DNA of 64,000 nucleotides, from positions 62,001 through 126,000 of the forward strand of contig JAENZP010000001.1 of NCBI GenBank assembly GCA_016841205.1. Direction: 5' to 3'. The stretch's first letter is position 1; each line of letters opens with the position of its first letter. This document shows positions 40,765-46,282 of the stretch, in pieces. Origin of the DNA: Desulfoscipio geothermicus (GTDB taxonomy: Bacteria > Bacillota > Desulfotomaculia > Desulfotomaculales > Desulfallaceae). The notes beneath the pieces are model-generated. The model ran no database searches. It was not told where the DNA came from and worked only from the letters and a program-made list of their open reading frames with translations. A program made the position numbers and the translations under genes.

Positions 40765-42096
40765 TTAAAACTTGGTAAGGTATTGCTCCAATTCCCAGGG
40801 GTGCACTTGCTGCCGGTAGTTGTTCCACTCAATGCGCTTGGCTTCCAAAAAACGCTGTATAACGTGCGGGCCAAGGGCATCCATGATCACCTGGTCAGTT
40901 GACAATTGATACATTGCTTCTTTAAGACTTTCGGGCAGTGTCGCTATGCCCAGCTCATCACGCTCCTGCGGTGTCAATTCATATATATTACGGTCACAGG
41001 GTGTTGGTGGTACAATCTTATTTTTTAGACCGTCAAGTCCCGCCTCAAGGCATGCCGCCAAGGCTAAATAGGGGTTGCAGGACGGGTCCGGGCTGCGTAA
41101 CTCAATACGGGTAGACTGGCCTCGTTTAGCAGGCACCCTAATCAGCGGGCTGCGGTTGCGGTAAGACCAAGCAATGTATACCGGTGCCTCATAGCCAGAA
41201 ACCAACCTTTTATAAGAGTTTATGGTAGGGTTAATGATGGAAGTGATGGCAGGAATATGCCGCATCAGCCCTCCAATATAATAAAGGCAATCCTGGCTGA
41301 GCTGGTTTGGTGTATCGGGATCGTAAAATGCATTAATACCGTCTTTCATCAGCGACTGATTTAAGTGCATGCCCGATCCTGCAATGCCAAAAACCGGCTT
41401 GGGCATAAAAGTGGCATGCAAGCCATGCCGCTGGGCAATGGTACGTACCACAAACTTAAAGGTTACAATTTTATCGGCGATATCCAGGGCATTGGAATAC
41501 TTAAAATCAATTTCGTGCTGGCCGGGTGCCACTTCGTGATGGGAGGCTTCAATTTCAAAGCCCATTTGCTCCAAGTTGAGCACCATATCCCGGCGGGCGT
41601 TTTCACCAAAGTCAACCGGAGTCATATCGAAATAACCGGCCTGGTCCTGGGTAATAGTGGTCGGCCTGCCGTCCTCATCCACGTAGAAAAGAAAAAACTC
41701 AGCCTCGGGACCAACGCTCATCGTGTAACCCATTTCCTCCGCTTCAGCAATGGCCCTGCGCAAAACGTAGCGTGGGTCGCCGATAAAAGGGGTGTCGTCG
41801 GAATTATATATATCACAGATTAATCTTGCTACCGCGCCGTCACGTGGTTTCCATGGGAAAACCACAAATGTTGACGGATCGGGATGCAGGTACATATCGG
41901 ATTCCTCAATGCGTACAAAACCTTCTATTGATGAACCATCAAACATTAACTCATTATTCAACGCCTTTTCCAATTGTTCTACGGTAATGGAAACATTTTT
42001 TAAGACACCAAATATGTCGGTAAACTGTAAACGTATGAATTTAACACCATAGTCCTTTACCATAGTACGCACGTCATCACTAGTAAATGCAGGCAC
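40765..42096 (-). CDS. glnA: Glutamine synthetase type I
   Basis: Makes glutamine from glutamate, ammonia and ATP. 443 residues, the GSI-alpha size of Firmicutes: grasp domain start [36 protein letters not shown] latch, catalytic GPEAEFF and [23 protein letters not shown], and the [20 protein letters not shown] substrate loop. Its mRNA leader (42100-42300) contains two hexaloop hairpins and a terminator, i.e. ANTAR-dependent antitermination is likely, with the regulator encoded just upstream. Start ATG behind AGGAGAGG. Confidence 0.97.
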
Positions 42097-42155
42097 TATA
42101 AGTCACACCTCTCCTTAAAAAGAGGCACAATGAGTATTCCAATATATAATATTAC

Positions 42156-42237
42156 AAAAAAACCCACACTGACAGAATTTTCGCGCAAACTGTCAAGTGG
42201 GCTTCGTTGCCCTTATTTTAGATACGCCATTGTACCT
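42156..42237 (-). promoter_or_regulatory. ANTAR-type antiterminator/terminator leader of glnA
   Basis: Read on the minus strand. Hairpin P1 (42237-42220) is AGGTAC-AATGGC-GTATCT, a 6-bp stem with hexaloop A1..G4. A 7-nt linker follows, then hairpin P2 (42212-42199), GGGC-AACGAA-GCCC, again A1..G4. The P2 3' arm overlaps the 5' arm of a terminator (42201-42163: CCCACTTGACAG with CTGTCAGTGTGGG) ending in T7. These are the two hexaloops and the mutually exclusive terminator known for ANTAR targets. Pairing checked by eye only. Confidence 0.88.
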
Positions 42238-42259
42238 TTAAAATTATTTTGATTGTTTT

Positions 42260-42302
42260 TTGTGCTATGATATAGTATATGCTATCCAACAGTATAGCAC
42301 AA
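42260..42302 (-). promoter_or_regulatory. glnA promoter inside an inverted repeat
   Basis: Minus strand: TTGTGC (-35), 17 nt, TATACT (-10). TTGTGCTAT and ATAGCACAA arms flank it, a possible operator. Transcription from here would begin upstream of the ANTAR leader. Confidence 0.6.
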
Positions 42303-42327
42303 GTATGTTTTAATTTCAGTATTTTTG

Positions 42328-42934: not shown

Positions 42935-43012
42935 CAATAAAAATACCCGTGCAGGTATTATTATAACCTACATCGGGCAATCTTTGCCATTTAAGGATAC
43001 ATCATTGTATCC
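42935..43012 (-). promoter_or_regulatory. ANTAR-type leader of the ANTAR regulator gene
   Basis: Minus strand: P1 (43012-42995) GGATAC-AATGAT-GTATCC, perfect 6-bp stem with A1..G4 hexaloop, almost the same as glnA P1. Then P2-like GGCA-AAGAT-TGCC (42988-42976; a 5-nt loop, so not a perfect hexaloop) whose 3' arm overlaps a terminator (42977-42946: CCCG..AGGT / ACCT..CGGG) followed by TATTTTTATT. Suggests autoregulation by antitermination. Confidence 0.7.
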
Positions 43013-45762: not shown

Positions 45763-46092
45763 GATTTATAATGTATTAAATTTGCCCTTACGACCATTAT
45801 GTATAATCCTTAACGTTTACTTTATTTATCATTGATTATTTATTTCCTCTTAACTAACTGCCACCTACTTGACCGTAATGCATCTCGATCATGTTATCTT
45901 ATCGACCCTTTACCTTTCATGTCTCCTCTATCATCCTACGTTTTGTAGCTTGAGCTTAATATACGTCTTTAAAATATACTGTTTGTGAGCGGTTTTCCAC
46001 ATGGTGAAATCATATACCGTTTTTTATATTTTAAGTTGGTTGTTGTACTATTGTATACAAAGTACGCTTTCCACAATGTGAAACACAATAAA

Positions 46093-46136
46093 CCTGTATT
46101 GTGTATGCAATATTCATACGCAATACAGGCTTTTAT
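46093..46136 (+). terminator. Terminator-like hairpin within operator region
   Basis: CCTGTATTGTGTATG and CATACGCAATACAGG pair with one mismatch around a 7-nt loop, then CTTTTAT. It lies between operators, upstream of the gltB promoter. It may end a short transcript from the left. Confidence 0.55.
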
Positions 46137-46169
46137 ATTGAATATTTCATATCGTGAAAACAATTTCTA

Positions 46170-46198
46170 TTGACTGACTAGTTTACAAAAGCTAAAAT
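46170..46198 (+). promoter_or_regulatory. Promoter of glutamate synthase-like gene
   Basis: TTGACT, 17 nt, TAAAAT. An operator ends 10 nt before the -35 and another begins near the expected transcription start. Confidence 0.65.
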
Positions 46199-46282
46199 AT
46201 TTTAAGATAAGTGAAATACACTTTCACAACATGGAAAATGTACAGCGATGTACATTAATTAGACGAGGAGGTCTGATGATTA

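Follow-up and report, generated by a model that had tools for sequence, protein, structure and literature searches.

In Desulfoscipio geothermicus, a short leader is directly followed by the glutamine synthetase gene glnA and directly preceded by the gene of an ANTAR response regulator, with the leader and both genes encoded on the minus strand of the 64,000-nucleotide stretch analyzed here (hereafter, the window; Table 1). The preliminary description of the leader as an ANTAR-controlled antitermination switch of glnA, with the regulator gene lying just upstream, is supported by our analysis, and we consider it very likely that the leader is a target of an ANTAR protein and that glnA is controlled by transcription antitermination. 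This well-supported reading rests on the observed anatomy of the leader, its mutually exclusive folds, their conservation and covariation, the co-occurrence with ANTAR genes and a motif common to the regulon.

Table 1. Features of the glnA leader and its surroundings (window positions; SD, Shine-Dalgarno sequence).
Feature	Positions	Strand	Basis
glnA, type I glutamine synthetase, GTG start	40765..42096	-	PF00120/PF03951, TIGR00653 above cut-off
Hairpin covering the glnA SD (CCUC...AAGGAGAGG)	42108..42125	-	folding
Conserved block CAUUGUGCCU immediately before the SD, with complementarity to AGGUACAAUG in P1	42123..42132	-	7/7 genomes; duplex energies
Intrinsic terminator, 5' arm including the P2 3' arm; U7 tract 42162-42156	42156..42204	-	folding; conserved in all seven genomes of the genus
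P2 hairpin, 4 bp, hexaloop AACGAA (A1, G4); antiterminator half	42199..42212	-	folding and covariance-model match
P1 hairpin, 6 bp, hexaloop AAUGGC (A1, G4)	42220..42237	-	folding and stem covariation in 26 leaders
Likely glnA promoter: CTGAAA (42319-42314), 17 nt, extended -10 TG-C-TATACT (42296-42291)	42291..42319	-	promoter scan and conservation
ANTAR response regulator, receiver (REC) and ANTAR domains; sole ANTAR protein found in the genome	42328..42912	-	PF00072, PF03861 above cut-off
Leader of the ANTAR gene, a second switch: AAUGAU loop in P1, A1 and G4 in the P2 loop, terminator overlapping P2	42938..43013	-	R1 match, 24.9 bits
Possible further target upstream of a glutamate-synthase-domain gene: AGCGAU-loop hairpin, then hairpin with the SD in its loop	46237..46274	+	weak R1 match, 16.2 bits

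Ramesh et al. 2012 (PMC3369931) define the ANTAR target as a dual hexaloop motif whose loops have A as their first and G as their fourth base, with a linker of 5-12 nt and an overlap between the second hairpin and a terminator. The architecture of the published eut type, to which, together with the nas type, the glnA leader had been likened, is matched in each of these respects. Two neighboring short hairpins, P1 (arms AGGUAC and GUAUCU) and P2 (arms GGGC and GCCC), carry the six-base loops AATGGC and AACGAA (in DNA letters), exactly as previously described and on the minus strand; they are separated by a 7-nt linker (AAAAUAA) and followed by ACUUGACAG...CUGUCAGUGUGGG-U7, and the genome encodes an ANTAR protein. 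When the leader is folded without the downstream arm, the minimum free energy structure consists of P1 and P2 (-12.7 kcal/mol); with this arm present, the terminator GCCCACTTGACAG..CTGTCAGTGTGGG-T7 prevails (-22.1 kcal/mol, z -3.4) and consumes the 3' arm of P2, so that P2 and the terminator exclude each other. Folding thus bears out the claim that P2 shares its 3' arm with the first arm of the T7 terminator, and structure prediction, which had been proposed as a check on which the reading would fall if no terminator formed, does yield one. A mechanical scan for paired A..G.. hexaloop hairpins, the second of them overlapped by a terminator, found this arrangement at one place in the window and at none in 20 shuffled windows (1.28 Mb).

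All seven genomes of the genus have the leader at the same place, and its loops read AAUGGY and AAYGAR there. Across the order, most orthologous leaders keep the hexaloop pair, the terminator and the loop G4, even when no loop letters were imposed; in the P2 loop, A1 is present in 37/47 and G4 in 36/47 leaders, counts that include misassigned rows. Conservation of the loop A and G in related glnA leaders, on which the earlier reading had been made to depend, was accordingly found, with G4 retained in the relatives and A1 occasionally replaced by G in P1. Leaders whose loop starts with G or whose stems are rich in wobble pairs escaped a strict motif descriptor, which was relaxed. In an alignment of 26 leaders, 100% of the cells pair and 12 double changes were counted, compared with 3.9 in shuffles; the leaders were chosen for loops that have a purine in first place and G in fourth, and the loop letters of this alignment are hence no independent evidence. 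The best match of a covariance model of the hairpin pair (named R1) in the 3.4-Mb genome was the glnA leader itself (45.7 bits, E 4e-8). Among 113 genomes of the order, the RNA motif (E up to 0.01) is present in 91 of the 99 with an ANTAR domain but in only 3 of the 14 without one (Fisher p 4e-8, kinship and genome incompleteness being ignored); in the three motif-bearing genomes without a detected ANTAR gene, assembly gaps are possibly responsible.

The promoter previously assigned to the leader, TTGTGC-17-TATACT, is present at 42302-42274, but conservation is lacking in its second hexamer (TATACT, TATATT or TATAAT at 42279-42274 in just 3/7 genus genomes). We dropped it in favor of the extended -10 element TGCTATACT, which is preserved in 7/7 genus genomes and, in the genome of the window, is preceded by CTGAAA at a distance of 17 nt. 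The actual glnA promoter is, on this pattern of conservation, probably located one spacer upstream of the one first chosen, and the transcript would start near 42284. The inverted repeat in which the leader was said to begin does exist, as TTGTGCTAT..ATAGCACAA over the transcript start (42256-42302, minus strand), but its perfect long form was seen, by eye, in this genome only. Some relatives have a shorter version of it, TGCTA..TAGCA, which may be an operator.

Could the leader work without the hexaloops? The terminator lies between two genes and is strong by itself, as would be expected if it just ended transcription of the ANTAR gene or constitutively attenuated glnA, with the hexaloops being incidental. 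Such a role is, however, very improbable, given that a conserved promoter separates the ANTAR gene from the terminator, that conservation and covariation are seen in the hexaloops, the linker and the stems, and that this arrangement is found again in front of the ANTAR gene, the second glnA and nifH. Even less credible is recognition of the leader by a sensor other than an ANTAR protein, that is, a riboswitch or T-box responding to glutamine or charged tRNA. Glutamine-sensing RNAs do occur in glnA leaders of other phyla, but a search of the leader with the Rfam covariance models returned no family at gathering thresholds and only chance-level matches at relaxed ones, leaving no curated match to a metabolite- or tRNA-sensing leader, and the dual hexaloop tracks ANTAR genes over the 113 genomes. 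How the ANTAR protein itself is activated is the point on which an alternative has considerable weight. The protein aligns over its full length with EutV (6wsh) and Rv1626 (1s8n), its similarity to these solved proteins being decisive, and both its receiver and its ANTAR domain were detected, in the REC-ANTAR architecture of the EutV type. According to the alignment, the EutV RNA contacts Met172, Asn173 and Arg175 are retained, whereas Arg168 and Arg177 are replaced by Gln169 and Ser178.

The regulator had been expected to bind in its phosphorylated form. The protein of the window retains Asp55, the acidic pair and Lys105, such that its gating by phosphorylation is possible. Among 49 orthologs, however, 21 have Asp as the phospho-acceptor, 24 have Glu and 4 have Ala, Asn or Ser at this place; because the acceptor Asp is thus replaced in 28/49, it is doubtful, judging from these sequences, that phosphorylation gating is a general property of the family, and the Glu at position 55 in about half of the orthologs suggests a pseudo-receiver. 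It is therefore nearly an even bet, though slightly less, that the ANTAR protein acts on the leader as a pseudo-receiver rather than as a phosphorylation-gated activator, being controlled by a protein partner (as in AmiC-AmiR and NasS-NasT) or by its abundance through its own switch. That no histidine kinase was recognized by eye among the neighboring ORFs, and that the regulator gene bears a switch of its own, would fit this variant; the intact acceptor site of the window's protein, which could still be phosphorylated, speaks against it. This raises the question of how nitrogen status is sensed by a regulator that, in half of its orthologs, is devoid of the residue to be phosphorylated.

Under the preferred reading of the leader as an ANTAR-controlled antitermination switch, the nascent RNA would by default fold into the terminator and transcription would end before glnA. 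We infer that the active regulator encoded by the adjacent upstream gene grips the hexaloops of P1 and P2, as a dimer if it resembles EutV, and that its control is activating: with the GCCC arm kept in P2, no terminator would form and glnA would be transcribed. Through a switch of the same kind, this regulator probably also drives the gene that encodes it, in a positive feedback, as well as the second glnA and nifH, and the inducing signal is probably nitrogen limitation.

Further candidate switches were found both within and outside the window. The one in front of the ANTAR gene, absent from the preliminary description, was matched by the R1 model at window positions 42975-43011 (E 0.007) and folds with z -5.8; its P2 loop has 7 nt in all seven genomes of the genus and mostly six in other genera. 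By eye, a switch precedes the ANTAR gene in all 21 genomes displayed across the order, and positive autoregulation of this gene is likely to be general in the order. A second glnA (contig C13, 158826, plus strand; L121:1501-1680) is preceded by two consecutive switches, first a dual hexaloop with its terminator, where the R1 model has a match (E 3e-4), and then an AAAGAA-loop hairpin overlapping a second terminator; in two relatives, the downstream site is a full hairpin pair. Upstream of nifH (C13:262300-264000, minus strand; L167), the model yielded two weak matches in tandem, each with E 2-4 and with terminators, in which the P1 loops start with G rather than A. Orthologous tandem sites precede nifH in relatives, and it is on this tandem placement and orthology that the individually weak nifH sites are proposed as candidates. 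Sites were also found upstream of glnB-amtB in one relative (NifH, GlnB and AmtB were identified by eye from protein sequence). In Desulfofundulus and Desulfallas, the ANTAR gene and two glutamine synthetase genes form a row in which every gene has a separate switch, and adjoin a third glutamine synthetase gene and a glutamate-synthase-domain gene; the row of Desulfofundulus also holds an iron-sulfur protein gene with its own switch. Other sub-threshold matches of the model (L123-L125, L127-L129), with no recognized nitrogen gene among the ORFs listed downstream, were set aside.

On the plus strand of the window, the element at 46237-46274 has no terminator, and its P1 and loop A1/G4 are preserved in 6/6 genus genomes having the downstream gene; possible roles are those of an ANTAR target acting on translation and of a palindromic repressor site in the DNA. 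Between the gene of an IclR-type regulator and this glutamate-synthase-domain gene, several inverted repeats of the type TTTC-N-GAAA (for instance, TTTCCACATGGTGAAA and TTTCCACAATGTGAAA) are present at 45985-46240 (plus strand) and resemble operator copies.

A conserved block downstream of the glnA switch hints at an additional layer of control. The sequence CAUUGUGCCU, which sits between the terminator and the glnA SD, is kept with small changes in 7/7 genomes of the genus, its surroundings varying slightly with 10-14 pairs to P1 remaining. The duplex with P1 has an energy of -15 to -20 kcal/mol, matched by 0-7 of 2000 shuffles (in seven related genomes, which are not independent), and the helix belongs to the best fold of the read-through RNA. 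The computed openness of the SD is 0.39 without constraint versus 0.18 in the form with P1 and P2, with ranges of 0.36-0.48 unconstrained and 0.09-0.27 with both hairpins held. These models allow for a third state of the leader, which we propose tentatively and regard as rather unlikely: after read-through, CAUUGUGCCU would invade P1, displace the ANTAR protein and free the ribosome site, since the long helix would draw bases from the hairpin hiding that site. If true, antitermination would be coupled to release of the regulator and to translation. The pairing suggests a second control step that is undescribed for eut, nas and ami leaders in the ANTAR-leader literature compared.

Among known systems, the leader most closely recalls the EutV-controlled eut leaders of Enterococcus faecalis, which (PMC3369931) likewise have two A1/G4 hexaloop hairpins, a linker in the same range and an overlap between P2 and the terminator, together with a REC-ANTAR regulator and several switches per regulon; P2 of the glnA leader also resembles the eut consensus AGCAANGRRGCUY given there. 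Unlike in the eut system, which comprises ethanolamine genes, the targets here comprise glnA, nifH and the gene of the regulator itself, no kinase partner was seen nearby and many orthologs of the regulator lack the phospho-accepting Asp. ANTAR antitermination of nitrogen genes is shared with the nas and ami leaders (NasR of Klebsiella, AmiR of Pseudomonas, NasT of Paracoccus and others), and AmiR and NasT act without canonical phosphorylation; these systems differ from the present one in signal domains and hosts, and no NasS- or AmiC-like partner was seen beside the ANTAR gene of the window. None of the papers found on NitR, Clostridium and glnA (the clostridial nitR gene presumably adjoining glnA) contained a description of this switch. 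The closest precedents come from related hosts, Desulfotomaculum acetoxidans and D. reducens, for which Ramesh et al. 2012 (PMC3369931, Fig. 9, Table S2; summarized in PMC3369936) predicted ANTAR leaders at nitrogen genes, among them a Desulfotomaculum regulon with genes for glutamine synthetase, glutamate synthase, PII and the ammonium transporter. The glnA leader belongs with these and is, as is well supported, a new member of an already predicted class of ANTAR leaders. Relative to these predictions, as given in the main text of that paper, our analysis adds another genus, evidence of covariation, switches of the regulator's own gene across the order and a conserved pairing located before the SD. 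Collectively, the results support the existence, in sulfate-reducing and syntrophic Firmicutes, of a regulon that governs nitrogen fixation and ammonium assimilation by ANTAR antitermination and to which the regulator's own leader belongs throughout the order.
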